From Chamaelirium japonicum (taxonomy: Eukaryota > Streptophyta > Magnoliopsida > Liliales > Melanthiaceae): a DNA stretch of 64,000 nucleotides. The first letter of the stretch is position 1. Every line of letters begins with the position of its first letter. Location: the NCBI GenBank assembly GCA_947650365.1, contig CANTAL010000003.1, forward strand, positions 2,852,001 to 2,916,000, in the 5' to 3' direction. The notes under the pieces are model-generated. The model was not told the origin of the DNA and did not search any database. It saw nothing but the letters and a program-made list of their open reading frames with translations. Below, in pieces: positions 13,096 to 46,924 of the stretch. The position numbers were made by a program, and so were the translations under genes.

Positions 13096-13485
13096 ACAGA
13101 AGAGAGAGAAGAAGAGACAAGAGAAAGGAAAGATAAATGAAGAGAGAAGAGAGAAGAAGTCCTACTGCAGTCCATTGGCCATGGGTATAGGTGTGAAGTA
13201 AAAAGGAATCTAAATTCCAAAACTCCCCAGAAGAGAGAGATAAAGAGAGAAGAAAACGGAGAGAGAAATAAAAACAAAAAAGAGAGAAGAAGAGAGAAGA
13301 ACTTCTACTCCAGTCCATTCGTCACGGGTATAGCTGTCCATCATCGTGTTGTGAGTAAAGAGAATAAGAAAGAAGAGAACGGAGAGATAAACGAAGAGAG
13401 AAGAGAAAAGAATTCCTGCTCCAGTCCATTGGACACGGGTATAGGTATGAAGTAAGAAGGAATCTAAATTCCAAAATAAATAGTT
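13096..13485 (+). repeat. Three tandem leader/tail pieces of about 120-150 bp
   Basis: Pieces at 13096-13215, 13216-13330 and 13331-13485 each run from a purine leader (CAGAAGAGAGAGA type) to CCATTGG or CCATTCG, the GGGTATAG word and usually a tail. The third starts TAGCTGTCCATCATCGTG, a piece of LTR-like box 5' end, and is repeated 2291 bp further on at 15622. This is a third, smaller level of tandem repetition inside the array. Confidence 0.75.
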
Positions 13486-15227
13486 AATTATTTGAATATA
13501 TAAATAATAAAATATTTTTTCAATATCTTAATATTTTATTAAATAATTTAATAAAGATTTATTTATTTTTATATTTAAATCATAAATAAATTATATAAAT
13601 AATTTAATTATATACTGTAAAGTAAGAAGGAATCTATATTCCAAAACTCTACTTCTCAATATAATCATCTCAATGTTATTCTGATTATTATAGTCATATT
13701 ACTAATTTTTTTTTAATTATTATATAATTTAAAAATTTAAGTTTTAGTAAAATAATTTATTTATTTAATTATTTCATTATCGAGTTATTTATTTAAATTT
13801 GTTATTTTAGTTATTTATTATTATTATATTATTTTATAATTCAATTAGGTAACTATTTAGTAATTTAAATTATTAAATATAGAAATACTGATTTAATTAT
13901 ATAATTACTTTATTAATTCATTTTATTAGTTATTTATTTAATTTTTATTTTATTTTTCATTTATTAAATAATTAGTCATTCATCTAAATATTAAAAAACT
14001 TATTTAGAGAAGAAATATATTAAACAGATTATTTATATAATAAATAAATAATTTAATTATGAAAAGATTTTATAATTAAATAATTTAATATTTCTAAAAT
14101 AAATAATTTTTTTAAATAATTTATTTATATTATTATATATAATTTCATATTTATTTAATTATTTAATTATTTTACTATTTTTTTATTAAACTAATTAAAT
14201 TAACTAAATAATAGGAAGTAAAGAATGAAGATGAGGCACACTCGGATATTTTGCTTTAAAAATATTTTATATTTTTCAATAAAATAATTTAAAACATTAT
14301 AACTGTTATGAAATCATTCGATCGGATAGCTTTCCATCATCGAATCTCTCCCAATGATTAGGATTTTCCATAGATTGCTTAGTCCCTAAGTAAGTTTACC
14401 CTATAAATAATATACGACCTCTTGAGAGTTATACTGTAGTACATTTGCCATGGGTATAGGTGTGAACTAAGAAGGAATCTAAATTCTAAAATTTCACTTC
14501 TGAATAGTATCATCTTAATATTATTATGATTATCATAGTAATATTACTATCATTTTTTAATTAAATTAATCATTTATTTAATTATTAAATAAATTAAATA
14601 GTTTAATAATGAAGCTTTTAGTAAAATAAATAATTTATTTACTTATTAAATTATCTAGTTTTTTATTTAAATTTATTATTTTATTTATTTGTTTTTATTA
14701 TATTATTAAATAATTAACTTAGGTAACTATTTAATTATTTCAATTATTTAATTAAAAAATAATAATTTAAGTATATAATTAATTTATTAAATAATTTTCT
14801 TAGATTTTACTTTAATTATTATTTTATTTTTAAATAATTAAATATTTAATTAATTATTTAAATATTTAAACACTTATTTAGTAACAAAATATATTAAATT
14901 TATTATTTACTTAAAACAATAAATAATTTAATTATTAAAAGATTTTATAGGTAAATAAATAATAATTTAAATAAAGTATTATGTAATTAAATAATTAAAA
15001 AATTAAATTATAAAATTATGAAATATTAATTAAAATAAATAAAAAATTAATTATTTAACTAAGTAATAAAATAAAATAATAATTTAATAATATTTATTTA
15101 TTATTTAAATAATTATATTTTATTTTAATATATAAATAATAATATATTTTTTGAAATAACTTAATATCTTTATAAATAATCAAAAAAAAAATTATTTATT
15201 TAAATTTTTAAATAATAAATATTAAAA
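13331..15227 (+). repeat. 1.9-kb direct duplication, copy 1
   Basis: The near-identical partner is 15622-17530. The copy starts at TAGCTGTCCATCATCGTG and ends at an AAATAATAAATATTAAA stretch. It covers a leader piece, AT body, an isolated tail (13618-13690), another AT body and a unit module (14214-14555). The second copy differs by a duplicated AT word of about 17 bp near 16230 and scattered substitutions. About 395 bp separate the copies. Confidence 0.9.
13486..14213 (+). repeat. AT body with an isolated unit tail
   Basis: AT body interrupted at 13618-13690 by a tail (GTAAAGTAAGAAGGAATC to ATCTCAATGTTATTCTG) with no leader before it. The same arrangement is seen at 15905-15985 and 32578-32672. 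No gene is seen. Confidence 0.75.
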
Positions 15228-15621
15228 ATTTTCAATAATTTTAATAATTTAATAATTAAATTTTAGTAAAATAATTAATTTATTTAATAATTTAGATATT
15301 TAGTTATTTAATTAAATTTATTATTTTATATACTTATTATTATTATATTATTAAAAAATAAAATTTGGTAACTATTTAATTATTTAAATTATTTAATAAA
15401 GAAATTATAATTTAATTATATACTTAATTTATAAATTTATTTTATTAGTTATTTCTAAAAATATATTTTATTTTTAAATAATTAAATAATTATTCTTTTA
15501 ATTAAATATTAAAAAACGTATTTAGTAAAGAAATATATTAAATAGATTAATTACTTAAACTGTTAAAAAATTTAATTATTAAATAATTTCATAGTTAAAT
15601 AAATAATAATTAAAATAAATT
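14214..15621 (+). repeat. Array unit, subfamily II, without a leader
   Basis: Head GGAAGTAAAG at 14214; LTR-like box begins at 14304 (TGTTATGAAATC) and includes TATAAATA. After the box the sequence passes straight to the GCCATGGGTATAGGTGTG part of the tail, so no PBS-like site or purine leader is present. Tail to 14555, then AT body to 15621. No gene is seen in the body. Confidence 0.8.
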
Positions 15622-17530
15622 TAGCTGTCCATCATCGTGTTGTGAGTAAAGAGAATAAGAAAGAAGAGAACGGAGAGATAAACGAAGAGAGAAGAGAAAA
15701 GAATTCCTGCTCCAGTCCATTAGACACGGGTATAGGTATGAAGTAAGAAGGAATCTAAATTCCAAAATAAATAGTTAATTATTTGAATATATAAATAATA
15801 AAATATTTTTTCAATATCTTAATATTTTATTAAATAATTTAATAAAGATTTATTTATTTTTATATTTAAATCATAAATAAATTATATAAATAATTTAATT
15901 ATATACTGTAAAGTAAGAAGGAATCTATATTCCAAAACTCTACTTCTCAATATAATCATCTCAATGTTATTCTGATTATTATAGTCATATTACTAATTTT
16001 TTTTTAATTATTATATAATTTAAAAATTTAAGTTTTAGTAAAATAATTTATTTATTTAATTATTTCATTATCGAGTTATTTATTTAAAATTGTTATTTTA
16101 GTTATTTATTATTATTATATTATTTTATAATTCAATTAGGTAACTATTTAGTAATTTAAATTATTAAATATAGAAATACTGATTTAATTATATAATTACT
16201 TTATTAATTCATTTTATTAGTTATTTATTTAATTTTTATTTATTTAATTTTTATTTTATTTTTCATTTATTAAATAATTAGTCATTCATCTAAATATTAA
16301 AAAACTTATTTAGGGAAGAAATATATTAAACAGATTATTTATATAATAAATAAATAATTTAATTATGAAAAGATTTTATAATTAAATAATTTAATATTTC
16401 TAAAATAAATAATTTTTTTAAATAATTTATTTATATTATTATATATAATTTCATATTTATTTAAGTATTTAATTATTTTACTATTTTTTTATTAAACTAA
16501 TTAAATTAACTAAATAATAGGAAGTAAAGAACGAAGAAGAGGCACACTCGGATATTTTGCTTTAAAAATATTTTACATTTTTCAATAAAATAATTTAAAA
16601 CATTATAACTGTTATGAAATCATTCGATCGGATAGCTTTCCATCATCGAATCTCTCCCAATGATTAGGATTTTCCATAGATTGCTTAGTCCCTAAGTAAG
16701 TTTACCCTATAAATAATATACGATCTCTTGAGAGTTATACTGTAGTACATTTGCCATGGGTATAGGTGTGAACTAAAAAGGAATCTAAATTCTAAAATTT
16801 CACTTCTGAATAGTATCATCTTAATATTATTATGATTATCATAGTAATATTACTATCATTTTTTAATTAAATTAATCATTTATTTAATTATTAAATAAGT
16901 TAAATAGTTTAATAATGAAGCTTTTAGTAAAATAAATAATTTATTTATTTATTAAATTATCTAGTTATTTATTTAAATTTATTATTTTATTTATTTGTTT
17001 TTATTATATTATTTAATAATTAACTTAGGTAACTATTTAATTATTTCAATTATTTAATTAAAAAATAATAATTTAAGTATATAATTAATTTATTAAATAA
17101 TTTTCTTAGATTTTACTTTAATTATTATTTTATTTTTAAATAATTAAATATTTAATTAATTATTTAAATATTTAACCACTTATTTAGTAAAAAAATATAT
17201 TAAATTTATTATTTACTTAAAACAATAAACAATTTAATTATTAAAAGATTTTATAGGTAAATAAATAATAATTTAAATAAAGTATTATGTAATTAAATAA
17301 TTAAAAAATTAAATTATAAAATTATGAAATATTAATTAAAATAAATCAAAAATTAATTATTTAACTAAGTAATAAAATAAAATAATAATTTAATAATATT
17401 TATTTATAATTTAAATAATTATATTTTATTTGAATATATAAATAATAATATATTTTTTGAAATAACTTAATATCTTTATAAATAATCAAAAAAAAAATTA
17501 TTTATTTAAATTTTTAAATAATAAATATAT
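15622..17530 (+). repeat. 1.9-kb direct duplication, copy 2
   Basis: Repeats 13331-15227 in the same order: leader piece 15622-15765, AT body, isolated tail near 15905-15985, AT body, and a unit module starting at 16520 (box from 16610, tail to 16860, again without a leader). High similarity in the AT spacers shows the event is recent relative to the divergence of neighbouring units. Confidence 0.9.
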
Positions 17531-18770
17531 TATTTAATTAATTTAATTATATAGATAATTAAATATTTATTTATTTATTTAATTATTTAATTAATTAAAC
17601 TAATTAAATTATTTAAATAATAAGAAGTAAAGTAGTAAGATGAGGCATACCTAAATTTTTTGCTTTAAACATAATTTATATTTTTCTTTAAAAAAATTTA
17701 AACCAATATAACTGTTATGAGATCGTTCGATCGGATGGCTATCCACTGTTAAATCTTTACCATAGATTAGGGTTACCCAAAGATTGCTTAGGCTCTAAGT
17801 AAGCTTACCCTATAAAATATATAACCCCTTTAAGGTAGAACATGTTTAACGGCTCTCTCTTTCTCCCATCTCATAACACGTTATCAGCACGAATATATCG
17901 AGCCCAGCCGACCAGTCATAAAAAAATAGAAAAAAAAACAAGGACAAAAGAAAAAAGTAAACGGAGCGATAAACGAAGAGAGAATAAAGAACAAGTCCTG
18001 CTCTAGTCCACTGGCCATGGGTATAGGTGTGAAGTAAGAAGGAATCTAAATTCTAAAACTCCACTTCTCAATAGTATTATCTCAATATTATTATGATTAT
18101 CATAGTAATTTATCTAGTTATTTCATTAAATTTATTATTTTATTGTTTTTATTATTATATTATTAAATAATTAATTTAGGTAACTATTTAATTTTTAAAA
18201 TTATTAAATAAAGAAATAATGATTTAATTATATAAATAATTTTTAATTTATATTATTAGTTATTTATTTAATTATTATTTTGTTTTAAAATAATTCAATA
18301 ATTAGTCAATTATTTAAATATTTAAAAACTTATTTTGTAAAGAAATATATTAAATATATTATTTATTTAAATAAATTAAATAATTTAACTGTTAAATAAC
18401 TTTCTATTTAAATAAATAATAATTTTAAAAAATATTACATTATTAAATAATTAAAAAAATATTTTAATAAATTATGAAATTTTAAATAAAATAAATAAAA
18501 AAATTTACTATTTAATTATATAATAAAATAAAATAATAATTTAAAAATAATTTTCATATTATTTAAATAATTAGTTTATTATTTGAATATATAAATAAGA
18601 AAATATTTTATCAATAAATTAATATTAATTTAAATAATTAAATAAATATTAATTTATTTTTATATTTAACTAATAAATAAATTATTAATTATTTATTTAT
18701 ATATATTTAAATATTTTTTTATTTATTTAACTATTTAATATATTAAAGTAATAATATTAATAAAATAATA
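17531..18770 (+). repeat. Array unit, subfamily II, complete module
   Basis: A short AT body end, then head at 17622 and LTR-like box 17713-17878 (166 bp; starts TGTTATGAGATCG, ends TCTCATAACA). The PBS-like site 17879-17892 directly adjoins it, followed by a purine leader (about 17925-17990), GTCCACTGGCCATGGGTATA and a tail to 18110. AT body 18111-18770. The plus-strand region after the box is typical of where an LTR element's internal region starts. Confidence 0.85.
17879..17892 (+). promoter_or_regulatory. PBS-like site CGTTATCAGCACGA next to an LTR-like box
   Basis: It adjoins the box end AACA with no gap. It matches the complement of the anticodon arm of plant tRNA-Ile(AAU) as I recall it (GTGCTAATAACG region), except for C opposite the wobble base. 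That base is inosine in the mature tRNA and would be read as G. Equally clean copies lie at 25888-25901 and 28286-28299. Assignment of the tRNA rests on memory, not a search. Confidence 0.6.
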
Positions 18771-20072
18771 GGAAGTAAAGAACGAAAATGAGGCACACCT
18801 AAATTTTTTGCTTTAAAAATAATTTATATTTTTCTTTAAAAAATTTTAAAACATTATAACTGTTATGAGATCATTTAATTGGATGGCTGTCGATTGTCAG
18901 ATCTCTCCTATGGATTAGAGTTTTCTATAGATTACTTAGGCCCTAAGTAAGCTTAACCTATAAATAATATATGACCTTTTTAGGGTAGAGCACGTTTGAT
19001 GGCTCTCCCTTTCTCTCATCTCATAATATGTTATCAGCATGAACATGTCGAGCCCAGCCAACCAGTCCAAAGAAACCGAAGAGAGAAATGGTGGCAAAAG
19101 AGAGAAACGAAGAAATAAGTGAACAGAGAGGTAAATGAAGAGAGATAAGAGAAGAAGTTCTGCTCCAATCTATTGGCCACGGGTATAGGTGTAAAGTAAG
19201 AAGAAATCTAAATTCTAAAACTTCACTACTCAATAGTATCATCTCAATATTATTATGATTATCATAGTAATGTTGCAATAATTTTATTAACTAAATTAAT
19301 TATTTATTTAATTATTAAATAATTTAAATAATTGTATAATTTAAATAATTTATTAATTAGTTTTTTATTAAAATAATTAATTTACTTAATTAGTTATTTA
19401 TTTAATTAAATTTATTATTTTATTTGTTTTATTATTATTATATTATTAAATAAATAAATTACGTAACTATTTAATTATCTAAATTATTCAAAAAATAAAT
19501 AATTATTTCATTATATAATGAATTTAGTAATTTATTTTATTAGTTATTTATTTAATTATTATTTTATTTTGGAATAATTAAATAATTAATCAATTATTTA
19601 AATATTTAAAAAGGTAGCTAGTGAAAAAATATATTAAATGGATTATTTTATTAAACAAATATATAATTTAATTATTAAATGATTTTATATTAAAGTAAAT
19701 AATAATTTAAATTAATTATTATATAATTAAGTAATTAAAAAATATTTTCTAAAATTATGACATATTAATTAAAATAAATAAAAAAAATTAATTATTTAAT
19801 TAAGTAATAAAATAAAATAATAATTTTATAACTATTTACTTAATATTTAAATAATTAGTTTATTAATTCAATATATAAATAATAAAATAATTTTTAAAAT
19901 TTTTTTATTATTTTCTTAAATAATAAAAGAAATATTTATTTATATTAGTATTTAAATAATAAAAATTATTTAAATTATTTAATTATTTAATTATATAGAT
20001 AATAAATATTGATTTATTTTTTAATTATAAAACTATTTATTTTATTAAACTAATTAAATTAATTAAATAATA
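18771..20072 (+). repeat. Array unit, subfamily II, 168-bp LTR-like box
   Basis: Head 18771; box 18861-19028 with TATAAATA at 18959-18966; PBS-like word TGTTATCAGCATGA; purine leader; tail to 19283; AT body 19284-20072, which holds the landmark AAATATATTAAATGGATTAT. No gene is seen. Confidence 0.85.
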
Positions 20073-21556
20073 GGAAGTTAGAATGACGATGAGGCACACC
20101 CAAATTTTTTCCTTTAAAAATAATTTATATTTTTCTTTAAAGAAATTTAAAACATTACAACTATTATAAAATCGTTCGATCGGATGACTGTCTACCATCG
20201 GATCTCTTCTATGGATTAGGGTTTCCCATAGATTACTTAGGCTCTAAGTAAGCTTATCATATAAAATATATACGACCTCTTTAGGGTGGGGCATATTTGA
20301 CAGCTCTCTTTTTTTTCCATCATACAACACGTTATAAGCACGAGCATGTCGAGCCCAGCCGACCAATCACAAGAAAACAAAAAATAAAACGAATATAGAA
20401 GACAGAAAAGATGAGAGATGAAGTCATACTCTAGTGCATTAGCCACGGGTATAAGCATGAAGTAAGAAAGAATCTAAATTCCAAATCTCCATTTCTCAAT
20501 AGTTTCATCTCAACATTATTATGATTATCATAGTAATGTTACCATATATTTTCTTAATTAAAATAATTATTTATTTAATTATTGAATAAATTAAAAAATT
20601 TAATAATTTAAATAATTTAATAAATAATTTTTTAATAAACTAATTAATTTATTTAATTATCTAATTATTAAGTTATTTAATTAAATTTATTATTTTATTT
20701 ATTTATTATTAATAGTTTATTAAATAATTAAATTAGGTGATTATTTATTTTTTTCAATTATTAAATAAAAAGATAATGATTTAATTTTATAAATAATTTT
20801 TTAATTTATTATATTACTTTTTTTTTCAATTTTTTTTTATTAATAGAATAATTATGAATTATTTAAATACTTAAAAACTTATTAAGTGATGAAATAGGTT
20901 TAATAGATTATTTATTTATACAATTAAATAATTTAATTATTAAATGATTACATAGTTTAATAAATAACAATTTAAATATATTATTATATGATTAAATAAT
21001 TAAAAAATTATTTTATAAAATAATCAAATAATAATTGAAATAATTTAAAAAATAAATTATTTTATAAAAAAATAAATTAAAATAATAATTTCATTATTAT
21101 GTACTTTTTATTTAAATAATAAGTTAATTATTTGAATATATAAATAATAAAATTTTGAAAAATTTTTTTGGTATTTTTCAAATAATCAAATAAATATTTA
21201 TCTAATTTAATATCTAAATAATAAATAAATTGTTTAAATAATTTAATTAATTAATTATATAGATAATTCAATATTTATTTAATTATTTAACTATTTACTT
21301 AACTTAATTCATTAAATTTAATTATTTACTTATTATTTAAATAATTAGTTAGTTATTTAAATACAGAAATAATAAAATATTTTTTTAAATAACTTATTAT
21401 TTTTTTAAATAATAAAATAAAATTTTTATTATTTTAATATTTAAATAATAAATATATTATATAAAAATTTAATAATTAAATTATTTAGATAATTATATAT
21501 ATTTTTAATTATTTAACTATTTAATTTATTAAACTAATGAAATTAATTAAATAATA
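20073..21556 (+). repeat. Array unit, subfamily II, AT body with internal duplication
   Basis: Head 20073; box 20162-20329 (168 bp); PBS-like CGTTATAAGCACGA; a short leader; tail to 20545. The AT body contains the end segment twice (TTTATTTAAATAATAAGTTA near 21105 and TTATTTAAATAATTAGTTAG near 21325), a duplication of about 220 bp that lengthens the unit. No gene is seen. Confidence 0.8.
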
Positions 21557-22717
21557 GGAAGTAAAGTAGGAAGATGAGGCACACCCAAAATTTTTGCTTC
21601 AAAAATAATTTATATTTTTTTAAAAAAAAATTAAAACATTATAAATATTATAAGATAATTCAATTGGATAGCTGTCTACCGTCGGATCTCCTCTATAGAT
21701 TAGGGTTTCACATAGATTGCTTAGGCCCTAAGTAAGTTTACCATAAAAATAATATATGACCCCTTTATGGTGGGGTATATTTGACAATTCTTTCTTTCTC
21801 TCATCACACAATACGTTATTAGCACGAACATATCGAGCCTAGCCGACCAGTCATAAAAAAACGAAGAGAGAAATAAAGATAAAAGACAGAAAAGAAGAGA
21901 GAAGAGAACAGAGAGATAAATAAAGAGAGAAGAGAAAAGAAGTCCTGCTCCAGTCCATTGGCCACTGGTATAGGTGTGAAGTAAGAAGGAATCTAAATTC
22001 CAAAACTAAACTTCTCAATAGTACCATCTCAATGTTATTATGATTATCATAGTAATGTTACTATAATTTTTTTCATTAAATTAATCATTTATTTATTTAT
22101 TAAATATTTTAATAATTAAGTTTTTAGTAAAATAACTAATTTATTTAATTATTTAATTATCTAGTTATTTAATTAAATTTATTCTTTAATTTATTTATTA
22201 TTATTATATTATTAAATAATTAAATTAGGTAACTATTTCATTATTTAAATTAATAAATAAATAAATAATGATATTATTATATAATTAATTTATTAATTTA
22301 TTTTTTTAGCTATTTATTTACCTATTATTTTATTTTTAATTAATTAAATATTTAGTCAATTATTTAAATATTTAAAAACTTATTTTGTGAAGAAATATAT
22401 TAAATAGATTATTTTCTTAAACAAATAAATTATTATGTAACTAAATAATTAAAAAATTATTTTATTAAATTATAATTTAATAACTATTTACTTATTATTT
22501 AATTATACAGTATATTATTTGAACATATAAATAATAAAATATTTTTTAAGTAACTTAATATTTTTTTAAATAATCAAATTAATATTCATTTATTTTATTA
22601 ATTAAATAATAAATAAATTATTTAAATAATTTAATTATTTAATTATATAGATAATTAAATTTTATTTAATTATTTAACTATTTAATTTATTAAACTAACT
22701 AAATTAATTAAATAATA
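21557..22717 (+). repeat. Array unit, subfamily II, complete module
   Basis: Head 21557; box 21646-21813 (168 bp, somewhat diverged ends); PBS-like CGTTATTAGCACGA; purine leader; tail to 22070; AT body to 22717. The PBS word here carries T at the wobble-opposed position, the genomic complement of tRNA-Ile(AAU), unlike most copies. Confidence 0.85.
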
Positions 22718-23946
22718 GGAAGTAAAGAAGGAAAATGAGATACACATGAATTTTTTGCTTTAAAAATAATTTATAGTTTTCTTTAAAAAAATTTAAAACA
22801 TTACAACTGTTATGAGAGATCATTCGATCGGATGGCTGTTCATCGTCAGATCTCTCCCATGGATTAGGGTTTTTGAGAGATTGCTTAAGCCCTAAGTAAG
22901 CTTATCCTATAAATAATATAAGACCTCTTTAGGGTGGAGCACGTTTGACAACTATCTCTTTCTCCCATCTCATAACACGTTATCAGCACAAACATATCTA
23001 GTCCAATCGATCAGTCCTAAAAAAATGGAGAGAGAGATAAAAACAAAAAAGAGAGAAAAGAGAAGAGAACGGGGAGATAAACGAAGAGAGAAGAGAGAAG
23101 AAGTCCTCCTCCAGTACATTGGCCACGGGTATAGGTGTGATGTAAGAAGAAATCTAAATTCAAAAATCCTAGTTCTTAATAGTATTATCTCAATGTTATT
23201 ATGATTATCATAGTAATATTACTATAATTTTTTAAATTTATTTAATTATTTATTTATTTATTAAATAATTAAAATAATTTAATAATTAGGTTTTTTATAA
23301 AATAATTAATTAATTTCATTATTTATTTATTTAATTAAATTTATTATTTTTATATAATTAAATAATTAAATTAGATAACTATTTAATTATTTAAATTATT
23401 AAGTAAAGGATTATTGATTTAATTATAAAACTAATTTATTAATTAATTTTATTAATTATTTCTTTAATTATTCTTTTATTTTTCATTAATTAAAGAATTA
23501 GATAATTATTTAAATATTTCAAAAATTAATTAGTAAAGAAATATATTTAAAAAATTATTTACTTAAATAAATAAATAACTTAATTATTAAATGATTTCAT
23601 AGTTAAATAATTTAGGGTAGGGCACATTTGACTGCTCTCTCTTTAATTATTTAATTTAATTCAAATTATAATAATTATATAATTCAATTAAATAATAATT
23701 TAATTGAAATTATTTATTAAATTAGGATGGGGCATGTTTCATGGCTCTCTTTTTCTCCCATCTCACAATACGTTATTTATTTATAAAAGTAAATAATTTA
23801 ATTATTAAATAATTTTATAGTAAAATAAATAATAATTTAAATATATTATTATATCATTAAATAATTAAAAAATTATTTGAGAAAATTATAAAATATTAAT
23901 TGAAATAAACATAAAAATTATTGATTTTATAAAGTAATAAAATATT
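22718..23946 (+). repeat. Array unit, subfamily II, with two extra box scraps in its AT body
   Basis: Head 22718; box 22808-22977 (170 bp); PBS-like CGTTATCAGCACAA; leader; tail to 23228. The AT body includes two isolated pieces of box 3' end: 23609-23645 (TTTAGGGTAGGGCACATTTG) and 23725-23778 (GGATGGGGCATG to TCTCACAATACGTTAT). Such scraps suggest gene-conversion-like patching or template switching. Confidence 0.8.
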
Positions 23947-24585
23947 AATCGATCGGATAGCTATTCATCGGCGGATCTCTCCCAAGGATTAGGGTATTGC
24001 TTAGGCCTTAAGTAAGCTTACCCTATAAATAATATATGACCCCTTTAGGGTGGAGGACGTTTGATGACTCTCTTTTTTTCTAATCTCACAACATGTTATC
24101 AGTACGAACATGTCGAGCCCAGCAGACCAGTCGTAAGAAAATAGAGAGAGAAACGAACACAAAAGAGAGAAAAGAAGGGAGAACAGAATGGAGAGATAAA
24201 CGAAGAGAGAAGAGAAAAGAAGTCATACTCCAGCCTATTCATCACGGATATAGGTGTGAAGTAAGAAGGAATCTAAATTCCAAAACTCCACTTCTCAATA
24301 GTATCATCTCGATATTATTATGATTATCATAATAAAATCACTATAATTTCTTTAATTAAATTAATTATTTATTTTATAATTAAATGATTTAAATAATTTA
24401 ATAAATTAGTTTTTAGTAAAATAATTAATTAATTTAATTTTCTAGTTATTTATTTAAATTTATTATTTTATTTATTAATTATGATTATATTATTAAATAA
24501 TTAAATTAGCTAACTATAAAATTAAATATTTATTTAATTATTTAACTATTTAATTTTTAAACTAATTCAATTAAATTAAATAATA
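23947..24585 (+). repeat. Array unit, subfamily II, entered inside the LTR-like box
   Basis: AT body joins directly to CGATCGGATAGC of the box; no head is present. The box ends at 24093 (CTCACAACA), then TGTTATCAGTACGA, leader, tail to 24340, AT body. A Lys/Arg/Glu-rich open frame over 24093-24323 is only the purine leader translated. Confidence 0.8.
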
Positions 24586-25629: not shown

Positions 25630-26610
25630 CTAGTAAAAAAAGGAAGATGAGGTACTTCTGAATTTTTGGCTTAAAAAATAATTTATATTTTTTTTTAAGA
25701 AAATTTAAAATATTACAACTATTATTAGATCGTTCAATTGGATGGCTAACAAACGTCGGATCTCTCCTATGGATTAGGGTTTCCCATAGATTGTTTAGGT
25801 GCTAAATAAATTTACCCAATAAATATTATACGACCCCTTTTGGGTAGGGAATGTTTGATAGCTCCCTCTTTCTCTCATCTCACAATACGTTATCAGCACG
25901 AATATATCAAGCCCAGCCCCTAGTCACAAAAAAACAGAGAGTGAAACAAAGATAGAAGAGACAAAAAATCTTGATCATGTCCGTTGGCCACGGGTATAGA
26001 TATAAAGTAAGAAGGAATCTAAATTCTTAAACTCCACTTCTCAATTATACCATCTCAATGTTATTATCATTATCATAGTAATATTAATATAATTTTTTTA
26101 TTTATTATTTTATTTTTATATAATTAAATAATTAGATAATTATTTAAATATTTAAAAACTTGTTTAGCAAAGAAATATATTAAATAGATTATTTACTTAA
26201 AAAAAATAAATAATTTAATTATTAAAAAATTTTATAGTTAAAGAAATAATAATTTATATAAATTATTATATAATTAAATCATTAAAAAATTATTCTAATT
26301 AATTATAAAATATTAATTAAAATAAATAAATTAATTAACTATTTAATTATATAATAAAATAAAACAATAATTTAATAACTATTTACTAATTATTTGAATA
26401 ATTATTTATTTATTTGAATATATAAATAATAAAATATTTTTGAAATAACTTAATACTTATTTAAATAATTAAATAAATAATTATTTATTTTAATTTTCTA
26501 TGATAAATAAATTATTTAAATTATTAATTATTTAATTATATAGAAAATTAAATATTTACTTAATTATTTAACTATTTAATTTATTAATATAATTAAATTA
26601 ATTAAATAAT
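25630..26610 (+). repeat. Array unit, subfamily II, clean PBS-like site
   Basis: Head from about 25630; box 25720-25887 (168 bp) ending CTCACAATA; PBS-like site 25888-25901 (CGTTATCAGCACGA); a short leader; tail to 26095; AT body. Confidence 0.85.
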
Positions 26611-27420
26611 CAGAAGTTAAAAAGGAAGATGAAGCATACCCAAATTTTTTGCTTTAAAAATAGTTTATATTATTCTTTAAAAAACATTTAAAACATTACA
26701 ACTATTATGAGATCGTTCGATCGGATGGCTGTTTACCGTCGGATCTCTCCTATGGATTAGGGTTTAGTATAGATTGCTAAGGACTTAAGTAAGCTTACCC
26801 TTTAGATAATATACAACCCCTTTAGGGAAGGGAACGTTTGACGGCTCGCTTTTTCTCTTATCTCACAACACGTTATCAGCATGAATATATCGAGCCCAGC
26901 CGACCAGTTGTAAGAAAAAAGAAAGAGAAACGAAGACAGAAGAGAGATAAGAAGGGAGAAGTGAACATAGAGATAAACGAAGAGAGAAAAGAGAAGAAGT
27001 CCAACTCCAGACCATTCGCCACGGGTATAAGTATGAAGTAAAAAAGGAATCTAAATTCCAAAACTCTACTTCTCAACAGTATCATCTCAATGTTATTTTG
27101 ATTATCATAGTAATGTCACTATAATTTTTATAACATTATGAAATATAAATAAAAAAAAATATTTAATTAAGTAATAAAAAATAATAATAATTCAATAATT
27201 ATTTACTTATTATTTAAATAATTAGTTAATTATTTAAATATATAAATAATAAAATATTTTTTAAATATCTTAATATTTTATTAAATATTTATTTATTTTT
27301 ATATTTCCATAATAAATAAATTATTGAAATAATTTTTTTATTTAATGAAATAGTTAATGAAATATTTCTTTAATTATTTAACTATTTAAATTATTAAACT
27401 AATTAAATGAGTTAAATAAT
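26611..27420 (+). repeat. Array unit, subfamily II, 168-bp box
   Basis: Head 26611; box 26703-26870 ending TCTCACAACA; PBS-like CGTTATCAGCATGA at 26871; long purine leader (about 26910-27000); tail to 27127; short AT body (about 290 bp). Both strands of the leader give open frames (charged on plus, hydrophobic on minus), which fits compositional bias and not coding. Confidence 0.85.
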
Positions 27421-29278: not shown

Positions 29279-30212
29279 GGAAGTAATAAAAGAAGATGAG
29301 GCACACTCGAATTTTTTACTTGAAAATTAATTTGTATTTTTTTGAAAAAAAATTTAAACCATTACAACTATTATGAGTTCGTTTGATCGGATGGATATCC
29401 ACCAAAGAATATCTCCCATGGATTAGGGTTTCTCATAAATTGCCTAGGCTCTAAGTAAGATTACCCTATAAATAATAGACGACCTCTTTAAGGTAGGGCA
29501 TGTTTGACGGCTCTCTTTTTCTCCTATCTCACAACATGTTATCAGTACGAATAGGTTGAGGCCAGTAGACCAGCATAAGAAAACAGAGAGAGAAACAAAG
29601 ACTGAAAAGAGAGAAGAAGAGAGAAGAGAACGAAGAGATAAACAAAGAGAGAAGAGAGAAGAAGACCTACTCCAATCCATTGGCCTCGGGTATAGGTGTG
29701 TAGTAAGAAGAAATCTTAATTCCAAAACTCCACTTCGCAATAGTATTATCTCAATGTTATTATGATTATCATTGTAAAGTTACTATAATTTTTTAAATTA
29801 AATTAATTATTTATTTAATTATTACATAATTTAATAGTTAAGTTTTTAATAAAATAATAAATTGATTTCATTATTTATTTATCTAGTTATTTAATTAAAT
29901 TCATTATTTTATTTATTTATTATGATTATATTATTAATTAAAGAAATTAGGTAACTATTTAATTTTTTTAAATTATTAAATAAAATAAATAATGATTTAA
30001 TTCTATAATTATTTTATTAATTTAAATAATCAAATATTTTTATAAATAAAATAATATTTTTTAAAATAATTAAAAAATATTTATTTATTTTAATATTTAA
30101 AAAATAAATAAATTATTTAAATAATTTAATAATTTAATTATTTAGATATTTCACTAATTATTTAATTATTTAATTATTTAAATATTTAATTTTTTAAATT
30201 AATTAAATAATA
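29279..30212 (+). repeat. Array unit, subfamily II, 168-bp box
   Basis: Head 29279; box 29369-29536 with telo-like TTAGGGTTT; PBS-like TGTTATCAGTACGA; purine leader; tail to 29790; AT body to 30212. No gene is seen. Confidence 0.85.
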
Positions 30213-36200: not shown

Positions 36201-36351
36201 AATAATTATTTATTTATATTAATATTTAAATAATAAATAATTAATTTAAATAATTTAATTATATAGATTATTAAATATTTCTTTAATTATTTAATTATTA
36301 AATTTATTTAACTATTTAATTTATTAAAATAATTAAATTAATTAAATAAAA
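33250..36351 (+). repeat. Array unit, subfamily I, leader split by an AT-body segment
   Basis: Head 33250; box 33339-33504 (166 bp); PBS-like TATTATCAACACGA; the leader is interrupted by 33576-34260 and resumes at 34261, with tail to 34435. The rest is AT body in which about 500 bp appears twice (landmarks near 35395 and 35905), plus three tandem copies of a 22-25-bp word (AATAGCTAATTACTTATT type) at about 35597-35665. No gene is seen. Confidence 0.8.
33567..34269 (+). repeat. 685-bp AT segment flanked by 9-bp direct repeats
   Basis: AAAACAGAA occurs at 33567-33575 and 34261-34269 on either side of an AT segment resembling 3140-3790 of another unit body. The flanks are the two halves of one purine leader. 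The direct repeats look like a target-site duplication, but the inserted sequence is array body with no terminal structure that I recognise, so copy-and-paste repair is as likely. Confidence 0.7.
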
Positions 36352-37645
36352 GGAAGTAAAGAAGGAAGAGGCATACCCGAATTTTTTATTTTAAAAAAAT
36401 TTATATTTTTCTTTAAAAAAATTTAAATAATTTCAATTTTTATGAGATCGTTCAATCGGATGACTATCCATCGTCAGATCTCACCCATAGATTAGGGTTT
36501 TCCATATTATACTTAGGCCCTAAGTAAGCTTACCTAATAAATAATATACGACACCTTCAGGATGGGGCACGTTTATGGACTCTCTTTTTCTCCAATCTCA
36601 TAATATATTATCAACACGAACATATCGAGCCCAATCGACCCGTCGTAAGAAAACGGAGAGAGAAACGAAGACAAAAGAGAGAGAAGAAGAGAAATGAGAA
36701 TGGACAAATAAACGAAGCGAGAAAATGTCCTGCTCTAGTCCATTGGCCACGGGTATAGGTTTGAAGTAAGAAGTAATCTAAATTCCAAAACTCCACTTCA
36801 AAATAGTATTATCTCAACGTAATTATGATAATTATTGTAATGTTTCTATAATTTTTAAACAATAGTAAACATTTATTTTATTATAAAATAATTTAAATAA
36901 TTTAAAAATTAACTTTTTATTAAAATAATAATTTTATTTAATTATTTAATTATCTAGTAATTTAATGAAATTTATTATTTTATTTAATAATGAATTATTA
37001 TATTATTTACTAATAAAATTATAGAACTATTTAATGGTTTAGAATATTAAATTAATAAATAATGATTTAATTATTATGTAATAAAATTATTAGATTATCA
37101 TTTAAACAAATTATTAAATAATTATTTATTTATATAACTTAAATATTAGAATTTAATTATTTAGATAATAAATTAAAGTATTATTTAAATAATAATTTTT
37201 TTAAATAATTAAATAATTATTCAAATATTGAAATATTTAAAAACTTAATTAGTGAAGAAATATATCAAACAGATAAATAAATAATAATTTAAAAATAATA
37301 TGTTATAAATAAATAAATATAAAATTTTATTTAATTAGGAGATATTAATTGAAATAAATAAAAAAATAATTATTTAATGAAATTATAAAATAATTTAATA
37401 ACTATTTATTTATTATTTCAATAGTTAGTTAATTATTAGAATATATGAATAATAAAATATTTTTTTAAATAGCTTAATATTTTTTTAATAATCAAAGATA
37501 TATTTATTCATTTTAATATTTCAATAATAAATAATTTGTTTAAGTTATTTAATTATATAGATAATTAAATATTTTATTAATTATTTAATTATTTAATTTA
37601 TTTAACTATTTAATTTATTAAACTAATTAAATTAATTAAATAATA
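36352..37645 (+). repeat. Array unit, subfamily I, 168-bp box
   Basis: Head 36352; box 36438-36605; PBS-like TATTATCAACACGA; purine leader; tail to 36857; AT body with forward landmark near 37255. Subfamily I markers: CATATTATACTTAGG in the box and GACCCGTCG after the PBS. Confidence 0.85.
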
Positions 37646-40241
37646 GGAAATAAAGAAGTAAGATGAGGCACATCCGAATTTTTTGCTTTAAGAAAATTTA
37701 TATTTTTCTTTAAAAAAATTTAAAACATTGCAACTGTTATGAGATCGTTCGATCGAATGACTGTCCACCATCGGATCTCTCCCATAGATTAGGGTTTCTC
37801 ATATTATACTTAGGCCCTAAGTAAACTTATCCTATAAATAATATATGACCCCTTTAGGGTGGGGCATGTTTGACGGCCCCATCTCATAATATGTTATCAA
37901 TACAAACATATCGAGCCCAGCTGACCCTTCGCAAGAAAACGGAAAAAGAAATGAAGATAGAAGAGAGAGAAAAAGAGATATTAGTATCATCTAAATTAAG
38001 AAGTAATCTAAATTCCAAAACTCTACTTCTCAATAGTATCATCTTAACGTTATTATGATTATTATTATAATATTTCTATAATTTTTTTTAATAATATAAT
38101 CATTTCTTTAATTATAAAATAATTTAAATAATTAAAATACTTTAATAATTAGCTTTTTATTAAAATATAATTTTATTTAATTATTTAATTATCTAGTTAT
38201 TTAATGATATTTTATTATTTTATTTATTTATTAATTATTAGTATTATTAAATAATCTAATTATGTAATAATTAAATGGTTTAAAATATTAAATAAAGAAA
38301 TAATGATTTAATTATATAAATATTTAAAATTTATTTAATTAATTAACTAAATAATAAATTATTGAAATGATAAAATAATTATTTAATTTATTTTATTATT
38401 AGTTTAAAAAAAAATTATTATTGAAAAAAATATTTTATTATTTATATGTTCAAATAATTAACTAATTATTTAAATAATAAGTAAATAATTATTGAATTAA
38501 TTTTTTTTTATTACGTAATGAATTTATTAATATTTTAATCCATTTTATTTAATTATTTATAATTTTATAAAATAATTTGTTAATGATTCCATTATATAAT
38601 AATTTATTTAAATTATTATTAACTTAACTATGAAATTATTTTAAAATGAAATTATTTTTTGTTTTTGTAAATAATTTATTTAATATATAATAATTTTATT
38701 ACATAATAATTTAGTTATTTAATTATTAACAAAATTATTTTATTATTTCAAAAAATAATTACTTATTTAAATTATTATTTATTTAATAATGAAATTATAT
38801 TTTTCTTTAAGTAAATAATCAATTTAATATATTTCTGTACAAAATAAGTTTTGAAATATATAAATAATTTAAAAATTATTTATTTATTTAAAAAAATATT
38901 ATTTAAATATTTCTTTATATAATTATCTAATTAACAAAATTCTAATTTTATAATTATTTCAATAAATAATTATTTCATAATTTATTTAAATAGTAATCTA
39001 ATAATTTTATTACATAATAATTTAGCTACGTAATTATTTATGTAATTATATTATTATTTCAAAATATTAATAATAAATATAATTTATTTTTGAAATTATT
39101 GCTTAAATATATAAAAAATAAAATACTTAAATTTATTATGTTAAAATATTATATAATTATATAATAGAATTATTTAATTAGAATATAATAATAAAAGAAA
39201 TAAATAATTAAATTATTTCAATATTTTATAAAATAATAAAATAATTATTTGAATTATTAATCCATAAAAGATAATTATTCCAATATTTTTATTATTTAAT
39301 TATTGAAAAATTCAATAATTATTATTGAATTATTTCATTATTGAATTATTTAATAAATAAAAAATAAAAAAATTTAATTAATTATAATTTATGGAATAAT
39401 GATTCCAATAATTATTTAATTAGTTTATAAAATATCTTAATAATTTCATTATTTTTTTATATAATTTATATTTTTTAATATAATAATTCAATTATATAAT
39501 TATATAATATTTCAATAAAATAATTTAAGTATTTTATTATTTCCGTATTTACATAATAATTTAAACTATAAATTATATTAATTAATAACTGTTTAAAATA
39601 ATAAAATAATTTAATTGATAATTACATAACAAAATTTTTATGTAATAAAATTATTAGATTATTATTTAAATAAATTATTAAATAATTATTTATTTAAATA
39701 GCTAAAATATTAGAATTTAATTATTCAGATAATTAAATAAAGAATTTTCTAAATAATAATTTTTTTAAATAGTTAAATGATTTGTCAATTATTGATATAT
39801 TTAAAAACTTAATTAGTGAATAAATACACCAAATAGATATTTACTTGAAAAAATAAATATTATAATTATTAAATAATATTATTGTTAAATAAATAATAAT
39901 TGATATAAAATATTATATAATTAAATAAATAAATGTTTTTATTAAATTATGAGATATTAATTAAAATAACTAATAATAATAATTATTTAGTTAAGTAATG
40001 AAATAAAATAATAATTTAATAACTATTTAATTCTTATGTAAATAATTAGTTAATTATTTGAATATATGAATAATAAAATATTTTTTTTAAATAGCTTAAT
40101 ATTTTTTTAATAATCAAAGAAATATTTATTGATTTTAATATTTAAATAATAAATAATTAGTTAAATAAGGTAATTATATAGATAATTAAATATTTTATTA
40201 ATTATTTAATTTATTAAACTAATTAAATTAAATAAATAATA
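37646..40241 (+). repeat. Long array unit, subfamily I
   Basis: Head 37646; box 37735-37891 (157 bp); PBS-like TGTTATCAATACAA; leader and shortened tail to 38088; then about 2.1 kb of AT body containing a reverse landmark (38800-38850) and a forward one near 39825. From 39745 it is the duplicated block shared with 1203 onward. Confidence 0.8.
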
Positions 40242-41081
40242 GGAAGTAAAGAAGGAAGATGAGGCAGACCTGAATTTTTTGCTTTAAAAAAATTTAAAAT
40301 ATTAAAACTGTTTTGAGATCGTTCGATAGGATTACTGTCCACCATCGGATCTCACCCATAGATTATGGTTTCCCATATAATACTTAGGCCCTAAGTAAGC
40401 TTATCTCATAATATGTTATCAACATGAACATATCGAGCCCAACCGACCCGTCGCAAGTAAACGGAGAGAGAAACGAAGACAGAAAAGAGAGTAGAAGAGA
40501 GATAGGAATGGAAGAATAAATAAAGAGAGAAGAAGTCCTGCTCTAGTTCATTTGCCACGGATATAGATAATTAAATAAAGAATTATAAAAATAATGTTTT
40601 TTTTATATAATTAAAAAATTAGTCAATTATTGAAATATTTAAAAACTTAATTAGTGAAAAAATATATATAATAGATTATTTACTTAAAAAAATAAATATT
40701 TTAATTATTAAATAATTTAATAATTAAATAAAATATTATATAATTAAATAAATAAAAAAAATTATTAAATTATGAGATATTAATTGAAATACTAAAAATA
40801 ATAATTATTTAAATAAATAATAAAATAAAACATTAATTTAATAGCTATTTCCTTATTATTTATATAATTAGTTATTTATTTGAATATATGAATAATAAAA
40901 TATTTTTTTAAATAGCTTAATATTTTTTTTAATAATCAAAGAAATATTTATTGATTTTATTATTTAAATAATAAATAAATAGTTTAAATAAGTTAATTAC
41001 AAAGATAAATAAATATTTCTTTAATTATTTAATTTATTTAACTAATTAATTTATTAAACTAATAAAATAAATTTAATAATA
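40242..41081 (+). repeat. Array unit, subfamily I
   Basis: Head 40242; box from 40309 (TGTTTTGAGATC) to about 40413, without the TATA part; PBS-like TGTTATCAACATGA; purine leader; short tail to 40572; AT body. Confidence 0.8.
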
Positions 41082-43905
41082 GGAAGTAAAGAAGGAAGAT
41101 GAGGCACAACCGAATTTTTTGTATTAAAAAAATTTATATTTTCTATTAAAAAAATTTAAAACATTACAACTGTTTTGAGATCGTTCAATCGGATGACTGT
41201 CCACCGTCGAATCTCTCCCATAGACTAGGTTTTTTCATATTATACTTAGGCCCTAAGTAAGCTTACCATATAAATAATATACTACCCCTTTAGAGTGGGG
41301 CACGAATATATCGAGCCCAACCGACCCATCGCAAGAAAACGAAGAGAGAAATAAAGACAGAAAGGAGAGAAGAAGAGAGATGAGAATGGAGAAATAAATA
41401 AAGAGAGATAATAATAGTAATTATATATTTAATTATAAAATAATTTAAATAATTGAAATATTTTAATAATTAACATTTTTTTAAAATAATTATTTTATTT
41501 ATTTATTTAATTATCTAGTTTTTTAATAAAATTTATTATTTTATTTATTTATTAATTATTATATTATTTAATAATCCAATTATGTAACAATTTAATGGTT
41601 TAAAATATTAAATAAATAAATAATAATTTAATTATATAATTTATTTATTTAATTAGTTATTTCTTTAATTATTATTATTTTTTGAATTTATTTAATAAAT
41701 TTATTATATAATAAATTGTCAAAATAATAAAATAATTAATGAATTCATCATTTTATTATGCAATAAGTAATTAATAAAAATATTTAATTAATTACCATTA
41801 TAGAAATATTTATTATAATTTTTATTTAATTATTTTATAAAATAATTTATTAATTTAATTATTTATAAAATAGAGTTATAAAATAATATAAAAATATAGC
41901 AACTAATTACTTATTATTTTCAAAAAATTATTTATTTTAATTTTTTTTCTTTTTTTTATTATTTATTAATTTTTTATTTTATTACTTAATAAAATAATTA
42001 ATAATTTGATGTATTTTATGTAATTTTTTATAATTGAATAAATAATTTGTTAATTATTCCATTATATAATAATTTATTTAAATTATTTATTTAACAATAA
42101 AATTATTTAATAATTAATTTTTTTTTTGTTTTAGTAAATAATATATTTAATATATTTTTTTACTAAAAAAGATTTTCAATATATAAATAATTTACTAATT
42201 ATTTATTTATACAAAAAAATTATTTTTAAATAATTTTTATATAATTTTATAAATAATAAAATTCTAATTTTATAATTATTTAAATAAATATTTATTAAAT
42301 TTTTTTTTTAGATGATAATATATTAATTTTATTACATAATAATTTATTTATATAATTTCTTATTAAATTATTTTATTATTTCAAAAAATTATAATTTATT
42401 TAAATTATTAGTTTTTGAACAATGAAATTATTTAATAATTAAATTATTTTTTTGTTTAAGTAAATAATCCTTTTAATATATTTATTTACTAAATAAGTTT
42501 TTAAATATTTAAAGAATTGAATAATTATTTATTTAATTAAAAAAATTATTATTTATATAATTATTTATATAAATATCTAATTAATGAAATTCTAATTTTA
42601 TACTTATATCAATAATTAATTATTTAATAATTTACTTAAATAATAATCTAATAATTTTATTACATAATAATTTAGTTATTTAATTATTAATGAAATTATT
42701 TTACTATTTCAAAAAATTACTAATTAATATAATTTTTTTTTTAAAATATGACTTAAATATTCAAAAAATAAAATACTTAAATGTATTTTGTTTAAATATT
42801 ATATTATTATATAATGGAATTATTTTATTAGAATATAAAAATAACTTAAAGAAATAATGAAATTATTTAAATATTTAATAAAATAATTAAATAATTATTT
42901 GAATCATTATTCCATAAATTAGAATTAATTCAATATTTTTATTATTTATTTTTCAATAACTCAATAATTATTATTGAATTATTTCATTATTAAATTATTC
43001 AATAAGTAATTAATAAAAATATTGGATTAATTATAATTTATGGAATAATTGATTCCAATATTTATTTAATTATTTTATAAAATATCTAAATAATTTCATC
43101 ATTTATTTATATAATTAATATTTTTAATAAAAAAATTTAATTATATAATTAGATAATATTTTAAATAAATAATTAAATTTTTTTTTATTTAAATATATAT
43201 TTTATAATTTAAAGTATAAATTATTTTAATTAAGAATTTTTGCAAATAAAAAAATAATTTAATCAATAATTACATAACTAAATTATTATGTTATAAAATT
43301 ATTAGATTATTATTTGAATAAATTATTAAATAATTATTTATTTATATCACTAAAATATTAGAATATAATTATTTAGATAATTAAATATAAAATTATATAA
43401 CTAATAATTTTTTTAATAATTAAATAATGAGTAAATTATTGAAATATTTAAAAACTTAATTACTGAAGAAATATATCAAATAGATTATTTTCTTAAAAAA
43501 ATAAATATTTTCATTATTAAATAATTTCATAGTTAAAAAAAGAATAATTTAAATAAAATATTGTAAAATTAGATAAAGAATAAATTTTATTAAATTATGA
43601 GATATTAATTAAAATAACTAAATAAATAATTATTTAATTAAGTAATAAAATAAAACAATAATTTAATAACTATTTACTTATTATTTAAATAATTAGTTAA
43701 TTATTTGATTATATGAATAATAAAACATTTTTTTAAATAGCTTAATATTTTTTTAATAATCAAAGAAATATTTATTGATTTTATTATTTAAATAATAACT
43801 AATTAGTTTAAACAATTTAATTATAGAGATAATTATATATTTCTTTAATTTTTTAATTTATTTAACTATTTAATTTATTAAACGAATAAAATTAATTTAA
43901 TAATA
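41082..43905 (+). repeat. Long array unit, subfamily I, inverted-double AT body
   Basis: Module 41082-41420 (box from 41171; no clear PBS word), then about 2.5 kb AT body with reverse landmarks near 42135 and 42460 and a forward one near 43480. Partner of 2485-5275. No gene is seen. Confidence 0.8.
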
Positions 43906-46051
43906 GGAAGTAAAGAAGGAAGATGAGGCATACCCGAATTTTTTGCATTAAAAAAATTTATATTTTTCTTTAAAAAAATTTAAAATATTATAAATGTTAT
44001 GAGATCGTTCGATCGGATGACGGTCCACCATCAGATCTCTGCCATAGACTAGGTTTTTCCATATTATACTTAGGCCCTAAGTATGCTTACCATATAAATA
44101 ATTTACGACCCCTTTAGGGTGGGGCACGTTTGATGTCTCTCTCTTTCTCCCATCTCATAATATGTTATCAACACGAACATATCGAGCCCAGCCGACCCGT
44201 CGCAAGAAAATGGAGAGGAAAATGAAGACAGAAAAGAGATGATAGTGGAGAAATAAACGAAAAGAGAAGAATTCCTGCTCCAGTCCATTGGCCATGACTA
44301 TAGGTTTGAAGTAAGAAGTAATCTAAATTCCAAAACTCCACGTCTTAATAGTATCATCTCAACGTTATTATGATTATCATTGTAATGTTTCTATAATTTT
44401 TTTAATAATAGTAATCATTTACTTAATTATAAAATAATTTAAATATTTTAATAATTAACTATTTATTAAAATAATTATTTTATTTAATTATTTAATTATC
44501 TAGTTATTTAATAAAATTATTTATTTATTTATTTATTAGTTACTATATTATTAAATAATCAAATTATGTAACAATTTAATGGTTGAAAATATTAAATAAA
44601 GAAATAATAATTTAATTATATAATTTATTTATTTTATTAGTTATTTCTTTAATTATTATTTTTTTTTAAATTAATTTAATTAATTCATTAAATAATAATT
44701 GCTTAAAATAATAAACTAAATAATTAATTAATTATTTTATTATTCAATAAGTAATTAATAAAAATATTTAATTAATTATAATTAATAAAATTATTATTAT
44801 AATTATTATTTAATTATTTTATAAAATAATTTATTAATTTAATTATTTATTTAATAAAGTAATAAAATAATATATTAATATAATAACAAGTTAATTATTA
44901 TTTTAGAAAATTATATTATTTTAGAAAATTATATTATTTAAAAAAATATTTTATTATTTATATGTTTAAATAATGAACTAATTATTTAAATAATCAATAA
45001 ATAGGTATTGAATTAATTTTTTATTTTATTACATAATGAAATAATAATTTAATTTTTTATTATTTATGAAAATAATTTGTTAATTATTTTATTATATAAT
45101 AATTTATTTAATTAATTATTTTTTTAAAATGGAATTATTGCATAATTAAATAATTTTTTTGTTTAAGTAAATAATCTCTTTAATATATTTCTTTACTAAA
45201 TAAGTTTTTAAATATTTAAATAATTAAATAATTATTTAATTATTTAAAAAAATTGTTATTTAAATAATTATTTATATAATTATGTAAATAATGAAATTTT
45301 AATTTTATAATTTAATTTTTTTATTATTTAAATATTTACATAATAATTTAAAGTATAAATTATATTAATTAATAATATTTTGAAAGAATAAAATAATTTA
45401 ATCAATAATTACATGACTAAATTATTTGTAATAAAATTATTAGATTATAATTTAAATAAATTATTAAATAATTATTTATTTATATAAATAAAATATTAGA
45501 ATTTAATTATTTAGATAATGAATTAAAAAATTTTTTAAATAATAAATTTTTTAAATAATAAAATAATTAGTCAATTATTGAAATATTTAAAAACTTAATT
45601 AGAGAAGAAATATATCAAATAGATTATTTACTTAAAAAAATAAATATTGTTATTATCAAATAATTTTATAGATAAATAAATAATAATTTAAAAAAAATAT
45701 TGTATAATAAATAAATATAAAATTTTATTAAATTATGAGATATTAATTGAAATAACTAAAAAAAAAATAATTTATTTAAGTAATAAAATAAAAAAAAAAT
45801 TTAATAACTATTTTCTTATTATTTAAATAATTAGTTAATTATTTAAATATATGAATAATAAAATATTTTTTTAAATAGCTTAGTATTTTTTTAATAATCA
45901 AATAAATATTTATTGATTTTAATATTTCAATAATAAATAATTAGTTTACATAATTTAAAAATAAAGATAATTAAATATTTCTTTAATTATTTAATTATTT
46001 AATTTATTTAACTATTTAATTTATTAAACTAATTAAATTAATTAAATAATA
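43906..46051 (+). repeat. Array unit, subfamily I, 168-bp box
   Basis: Head 43906; box 43995-44162; PBS-like TGTTATCAACACGA; leader; tail to 44402; AT body with a reverse landmark at 45155-45203 and a forward one near 45615. The duplicated block ends near 45487, so the last 560 bp are specific to this copy. Confidence 0.85.
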
Positions 46052-46924
46052 GGAAGTAAAGAAGGAAGATAAGACACACCCGAATTTTTTACTTTAAAAA
46101 AATTTATATTTTTCTTTAAAAAAATTTAAAATATTACAACTTTTATGAGATCGTTCGATCGGATGACTGTCCACCGTCGGATCTCCACCATAGATTAGGG
46201 TTTCCCATATTATACTTAGGCCCTAACTAAGCTTACCCTATAAATAATATACTACCCCTTTAGGGTGGGGCATGTTTGACGGCTCTCTCTTTCTACCATC
46301 TCACAATATATTATCAATACGAACATATCGAGTCTAGCCGACCCGTCGCAAGAAAACGGAGAGAGAAACGAATACAGAAGAGAGAGAAGAAGAGATATTA
46401 GAATGGAGAAATAAACGAAGAGAGAAGAAGTCCTACTCCAGTTCATTGGCCACGGGTATAGGTTTGAAGTAAGAAATAATCTAAATTCCAAAACTGCATT
46501 TCTCAATAGTATCATCTTAACGTTATTATGATTATATTAAAATATTTCTATAATTTTTTTAATAATATTAATCATTTATTTAATTATAAAATAATTTAAA
46601 TAATTGAAATACTTTAATAATTAGCTTTTTATTAAAATAGTACTTTTATTTAATTATTTAATCATCTAGTTATTTAATAATATTTATTATTTTATTTATT
46701 TATTAATTATTATATTATTAAATAATCAAATTATATAATAATTTAATGGTTTAAAATATTAAATAATTATTTAATTATATAATTATTTTATTTAATTAGT
46801 TATTTATTTAATTATTATTATTTTTTAAATTAATTAAATAAATTTATTAATTAATAAATTATTGAAATAATAAAATAATTATTTAATTCATTATTTTATT
46901 ATTCAATAATTAATTAATGAAAAT
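46052..46924 (+). repeat. Last forward long unit, subfamily I
   Basis: Head 46052; box 46141-46308 (168 bp); PBS-like TATTATCAATACGA; leader; tail to 46560; AT body cut at about 46924, where the short-unit linker CTCCATTCTCTTCTTTCTTC begins. Confidence 0.85.

Follow-up and report, generated by a model that had tools for sequence, protein, structure and literature searches.

What kind of sequence is repeated in this locus, and how was it multiplied? The locus is a 64-kb stretch of the Chamaelirium japonicum genome (contig CANTAL010000003.1), here called the window (positions 1-64000), along which a 168-bp box followed by a primer-binding-like site recurs many times. An earlier note had read the array as a short, complete long terminal repeat (LTR) element used as a satellite unit. 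Here, we consider it probable that the unit is the truncated 5' end of a Bianca-type Ty1/copia retrotransposon that was joined to AT-rich DNA and then multiplied as a satellite. Because the window is 80% A+T, with several kilobases below 10% G+C, alignments were judged against shuffles that preserve neighbouring-base frequencies.

Profiles of the box and of the leader that follows it were built from the 12 boxes named in that note, and both strands of the window were searched with them (E <= 1e-3; box matches starting at model position 2 were lengthened by one base). This gave 66 box matches and 88 leader matches. The named boxes, which are very probably LTRs, all measured exactly 168 bp, as had been claimed:

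5365-5532, plus strand, 168-bp box
18861-19028, plus strand, 168-bp box
20162-20329, plus strand, 168-bp box
21646-21813, plus strand, 168-bp box
25720-25887, plus strand, 168-bp box
26703-26870, plus strand, 168-bp box
29369-29536, plus strand, 168-bp box
36438-36605, plus strand, 168-bp box
43995-44162, plus strand, 168-bp box
46141-46308, plus strand, 168-bp box
57934-58101, plus strand, 168-bp box
61949-62116, minus strand, 168-bp box, inverted

Box E-values were as low as 1e-55, which excludes chance. The box starts with TGTTATGAGA and ends with TCTCACAACA or TCTCATAACA, giving TG...CA termini and 10-bp inverted ends. Exact copies of TGTTATGAGA and TCTCATAACA on the plus strand numbered 9 and 8, and with at most one mismatch 31 and 35; the ends are often altered by C-to-T or G-to-A change. 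A TATA box lies within the 168 bp (CCTATAAATAATATA in most copies). The consensus 14-mer CGTTATCAGCACGA directly abuts the right box end, with at most four mismatches at 44 of the 48 complete right ends, compared with a background of 0.67% at random positions (20,000 draws); at the remaining four (12682, 23722, 48055 and 52820) the 14-mer had 5 to 8 mismatches. The inverted ends, the TATA box and the primer-like site described earlier are thus all present. Exact copies of the site and one complete leader are located as follows:

17879-17892, plus strand, exact primer-binding site CGTTATCAGCACGA
starts at 25888, 28286 and 51356 (plus strand) and 54372 (minus strand), further exact copies of CGTTATCAGCACGA after a complete box end
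5533-5726, plus strand, leader of one unit, consisting of the primer site and purine-rich untranslated-like sequence

We take CGTTATCAGCACGA to be the reverse complement of the anticodon arm of tRNA-Ile(AAU) (approximately nucleotides 27-40), with a C facing A34, which is edited to inosine. In a plant survey, the primer sites of Bianca elements are complementary to an edited half tRNA-Ile, and half-tRNA primers are confined to some copia lineages within that survey (Neumann et al. 2019, PMC6317226). None of the 48 copies had TGG within 8 bases after the LTR end, which a whole-tRNA primer would require. The base opposite inosine-34 was C in 43 of 48 copies, whereas the other C positions examined had C in 31-34 of 48; the copies are not independent, so we make no claim of selection. 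Mean column identity at the primer site (0.86 and 0.91) was similar to that of neighbouring columns and therefore gives no sign of present retrotransposition.

Does the same LTR end occur together with coding sequence? A pattern joining the LTR end and the primer site was scanned over GTDB contigs and matched four stretches. One of these, NZ_QPKJ02000023.1 (1-5601, 5.6 kb), is a related coding element that shares both the end and the site. It is filed under a Solirubrobacter assembly, where it is probably contamination, since it carries copia frames. Besides a pol frame, it contains a zinc-knuckle frame that by eye resembles gag, the tract CCAAGGGGGAG and an LTR-like segment of 184 bp, which starts with TGTAAATATGG and ends with CACAATA, with an exact CGTTATCAGCACGA straight after. 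As only one LTR copy is present, its limits were inferred from the tract and the primer site and not from a pair. Leader and gag-pol extend to opposite ends of the contig, as if it had been collapsed from a repeat. The other three stretches looked unrelated to an LTR by eye in 120-base flanks, as was one stretch matched by the same pattern on a viral contig.

A second relative lies in the window itself. It is a copia fragment on the minus strand (7898-10756), in which pol is followed by a polypurine tract, an LTR and then the AT body of the array:

7898-8052, minus strand, 155-bp LTR of a Bianca-like Ty1/copia element, single copy, TGTTATGAAACGG...GCAACACA, then array-unit AT body
8053-8061, minus strand, polypurine tract AAGGGGGAG, immediately preceding the 155-bp LTR
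8411-9019, minus strand, 202-aa frame similar to the RNase H end of copia pol (likeness to the C-terminus of the contig's pol by eye)
9113-10750, minus strand, copia frame with integrase C-terminus and reverse transcriptase (RVT_2, E 1e-57)

Its pol is 63% identical to that of the 5.6-kb contig over 557 aligned columns; the 202-aa frame matched no Pfam family at E 0.001. The 3' end of the 155-bp LTR was inferred from the resumption of AT-body homology. A GGGGGAG tract precedes both related LTRs, the one of 184 bp and the one of 155 bp. The fragment is truncated inside a box at approximately 10756, and the join (10750-10760) falls by eye at a short TATAT-like stretch, which suggests a microhomology junction. 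The earlier statement that no coding sequence lies between boxes was right for 13.5-46.9 kb, where there is no stop-to-stop frame of at least 120 aa, but not for the window, which has copia pol at 8.4-10.75 kb. A pol search of viral contigs gave no match, nor did a scan with a box-core pattern, and plasmids gave no match to the compact form of the unit (see below). Three small actinomycete plasmid records showed distant reverse transcriptase similarity to the window pol (NZ_CP115454.1, 33%; NZ_CP115302.1, 33%; NC_015657.1, 26%).

In global alignments of the window LTR (160 bases used), none of 300 shuffles reached the score for 8 of the 12 boxes, and 1 to 7 of the 300 did so for the other four. 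On its primer site, ends, length and company the box is a Bianca-type LTR, to which sequence similarity of the box adds modest support; the name Bianca is a putative assignment from these sequence features. The array also behaves as a satellite, and its LTR similarity to the contig is weak, as would be expected if an unrelated satellite merely resembled an LTR. We give this explanation very little credence, considering that 44 of 48 copies have the primer-site match precisely where an LTR would have it, that the box has TG...CA ends and a TATA box, and that a contig with copia frames shows the same junction of LTR end and primer site. The identification of the box as an LTR, made earlier, is therefore upheld by its anatomy and by both copia relatives.

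The boxes are distributed over the following blocks of array, on either side of the copia fragment:

1-7894, boxes on the plus strand, AT-type array block, of which 52-7456 is an 86% duplicate of 38723-46049
10757-13485, both orientations, compact array of box and leader pieces
13486-46924, plus strand, main AT-type array of AT body, box, primer site and leader (profile matches)
46925-59270, both orientations, compact array, mostly AT-poor, of box and leader pieces, with residual AT stretches (e.g., 49.3-50.3 and 56.4-57.0 kb)
59271-64000, minus strand, inverted AT-type array block

By eye, the last ~0.4 kb of the first block looks like an inverted unit. In the main array, successive long box copies are ~0.7-3.1 kb apart from start to start, leaving a spacer of ~0.3-2.7 kb (box spacing minus 368 bp). 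Of the 29 complete left ends, 27 are preceded by the AT flank ATTTAAAACATTACAAC, as judged by eye, and only its last bases are retained at the other two (54250 and 54500). Unit homology was examined with 17 units (136 pairs) in 100-bp bins, each pair against 9 shuffles, for which 10% is expected by chance. All 136 pairs beat their shuffles in the two bins left of the box and the first bin right of it, and at 600-700 bp from the box 88 pairs on the left and 91 on the right still did so. Whole blocks have been duplicated as well, over 7,549 bp at 86% (52-7456 and 38723-46049), over 2,004 bp at 97% (13331-15315 and 15622-17620) and, in inverted orientation, over 3,583 bp at 81.5%. The 7.5-kb duplicates lie 38.7 kb apart with several units inside and resemble a higher-order repeat. 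With tandem homologous units and block duplications, the box does serve as part of a satellite unit, as the earlier note had it.

Is each unit nevertheless a complete element? The unit could be a terminal-repeat retrotransposon in miniature (TRIM) or another non-autonomous LTR element made of LTR, primer site, leader, AT body and LTR, with LTR-sharing tandems as in Cassandra or Wukong. The order of LTR, primer site, leader and next LTR is that of such an element, and tandem TRIM arrays have been reported (PMC7215508 and PMC4528315). However, a polypurine tract directly 5' of the LTR is missing: among the 21 left flanks measured of 29 left ends listed, 20 were free of G over their last 15 bases and the remaining one had a single G, and the longest purine runs within 25 bases (4-11 bases) are A-rich and do not adjoin the box. 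That no purine tract touches the box on its left had already been remarked as a weak point. Moreover, neither an LTR pair nor a target duplication, both of which a TRIM needs, was seen in the window, where no dispersed copy occurs; successive boxes are separated by leader and long AT body or by rearranged leader instead of enclosing a short internal region, and a spacer of ~0.3-2.7 kb is not miniature. The homology of the AT flank and the absence of an adjoining polypurine tract mean that the units should not be read as LTR pairs. Thus, an AT flank stands where the tract would be and the AT body is itself homologous between units, and we consider it unlikely that the unit is a TRIM, which the earlier note had proposed. 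Homologous whole units, including the AT body, fit DNA duplication of a truncated 5' end.

A purine word does occur further to the left, as the earlier note had pointed out; in the unit with the box at 5365 it is 73-89 bp from the box:

5276-5292, plus strand, purine-rich word GGAAGTAAAGAAGGAAG with a single T, and then ATGAGGC

If GGAAGTAAAGAAGGAAGA were the polypurine tract, the functional LTR would be longer (~240 bp) and would start with TGAGGCAC, and correctly ordered AT-type units could be mobilised in trans. The 18-base purine-rich word (one T) immediately precedes TG, and its mean column identity is 0.87-0.91; however, adjacent AT columns are equally well kept (0.90-0.95). Furthermore, the related LTRs start with TGTTATGAAACGG and TGTAAATATGG after the GGGGGAG tract and their lengths are close to that of the 168-bp box, which has 10-bp inverted ends of its own. 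A longer LTR is thus very unlikely in our view. It is even harder to credit that units are still mobilisable, with the purine word as a shifted tract, an effective ~240-bp LTR of the form TGAGGCAC...ACA and copying of array transcripts by copia enzymes. If that were true, cleaved tRNA-Ile would prime the reverse transcription of a satellite, which would in this way seed new arrays.

The copies have also diverged in a structured way. Typing of 47 primer-site copies at three diagnostic positions gave 25 A-type, 8 B-type and 14 uncallable copies. The 33 typed copies fall in five runs (p = 0.0002 by shuffling), in agreement with the two block-wise subfamilies noticed before, and all typable copies at 10.76-13.5 and 46.9-59.3 kb are A-type, like those at 17.7-30.5 kb. 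These two regions have a compact arrangement in which most units have no AT body. The earlier description of the box within AT-rich units was accordingly correct but incomplete, as this second, mostly AT-poor arrangement also exists. Within the compact regions, 16 of 37 box matches begin at box position 44-46. The junction of the compact-unit start with a reversed leader piece (TAATTAAATCTCTCCGTTCTCTTCTCTCTTCTCCCATGG) had five matches (at most 7 errors), and a leader-to-reversed-leader pattern had seven, of which four (11690, 48853, 53321 and 56061) were genuine by eye and three were ordinary leader. Inverted arms of at least 80 nt within 1.5 kb numbered 65 pairs. In an alignment of 17 units, the changes C to T and G to A each amounted to 16% (22% at CpG), and other changes to ~1-6%. 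This excess is the pattern expected of methylated DNA, and methylation may be its cause.

Several observations weigh against a truncated Bianca-type end amplified by duplication. First, the 5.6-kb contig and the window fragment have a single LTR each, the contig LTR aligns only weakly to the boxes (its score was reached by 1 to 38 of 300 shuffles), and the window LTR, when aligned locally to four boxes, stays inside the shuffle range. Second, half tRNA-Ile priming is exclusive to Bianca solely inside the plant survey (PMC6317226); the tRNA-Ile anticodon loop also primes a copia element of the rust Puccinia hordei and some fungal Helenus TRIMs (PMC10886601). Third, Mantel comparisons gave no significant correlation of box distance with physical distance (r -0.18, p 0.90), of box with leader distances (r 0.18, p 0.16) or of upstream with leader distances (r 0.19, p 0.16); upstream and box distances were the sole significant pair (r 0.39, p 0.006). 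This means that units are mixed and not merely duplicated next door, and it suggests that exchange or conversion did the mixing. Finally, no empty site was found: 7 of 34 left-flank matches had no box directly after, and none of the four that were read was uninterrupted. The left flank at 27342 ends within the flank itself, those at 1639 and 63934-64000 continue into mid-box, and the matches at 723, 21245 and 31977 are partial AT matches. In the flank at 59456 (unit near 59270), the box start joins the primer site at a CGTT that both share, with most of the box deleted.

On balance, we favour the following course of events for the truncated Bianca-type end. The box would be the LTR of a Bianca-type Ty1/copia element, and the sequence after it the half-tRNA-Ile primer site and the untranslated leader. 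One copy, lying in very AT-rich DNA, would have been cut on its 3' side and lost gag-pol, the polypurine tract and the second LTR. The composite of AT flank, LTR, primer site, leader and AT body would have been amplified at the DNA level, through unequal exchange or another form of duplication, in blocks of a few hundred bases up to 7.5 kb. Units would have diverged into the two subfamilies while decaying chiefly by C-to-T change, and a rearrangement in the purine-rich leader would have produced the compact unit, which has no AT body and spread in both orientations. The single founding event and unequal exchange as the process are what we infer from these data; overall, the array looks to have spread by DNA duplication and not by jumping.

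How does this array compare with known systems? Bianca elements (PMC6317226) share the edited half tRNA-Ile primer site, and the window and the contig carry copia-type reverse transcriptase, whereas gag-pol, polypurine tract and LTR pair are all missing from the array units. Fungal copia and Helenus TRIMs (PMC10886601) likewise use anticodon-loop primer sites, including that of tRNA-Ile (Copia-18_PHord); Helenus LTRs, however, contain tRNA-like sequence, and ARAGORN found no tRNA in the window (Rfam at gathering thresholds also gave no match there). Tandem arrays of the Cassandra TRIM (PMC7215508) resemble this one in having the LTR as repeat unit and internal sequence as spacer, but Cassandra has the primer site TGGTATCAGAGC and a 5S-derived LTR, in contrast to the half-tRNA-Ile site, long AT body, block duplications and missing polypurine tract found here. 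Wukong tandems of maize (PMC4528315) also have several LTRs per tandem, ascribed to unequal crossing over; they consist of 532-bp elements with a polypurine tract and are reported with up to seven LTRs, and the present array has 66 box matches and truncated units. Satellites derived from LTR segments via duplication are reviewed in PMC12628747, where the covered part names no Bianca case; the array differs from them in its specific composite unit.

Since LTR-derived satellites and tandem LTR arrays are already known, the array is a further case of a known kind. In a literature search at the level of titles and abstract starts, we found no description of a Bianca-derived satellite among the matches listed, which does not establish its absence from print. 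Searching by the primer-site letters gave nothing on retrotransposons by title among the matches listed and none jointly with 'retrotransposon'; the tRNA arm letters gave unrelated matches only, and phrases for LTR-derived satellites gave no match.

The locus indicates how a satellite unit can arise from the retrotransposon end that bears the promoter and the primer site, once this end is separated from the genes. Intermediates are present in one window, including AT-type units, compact units, recurring rearrangement junctions and a nearby coding relative. Judging from the TATA box, full units may keep a pol II promoter. If they do, the array could yield transcripts and small RNAs.

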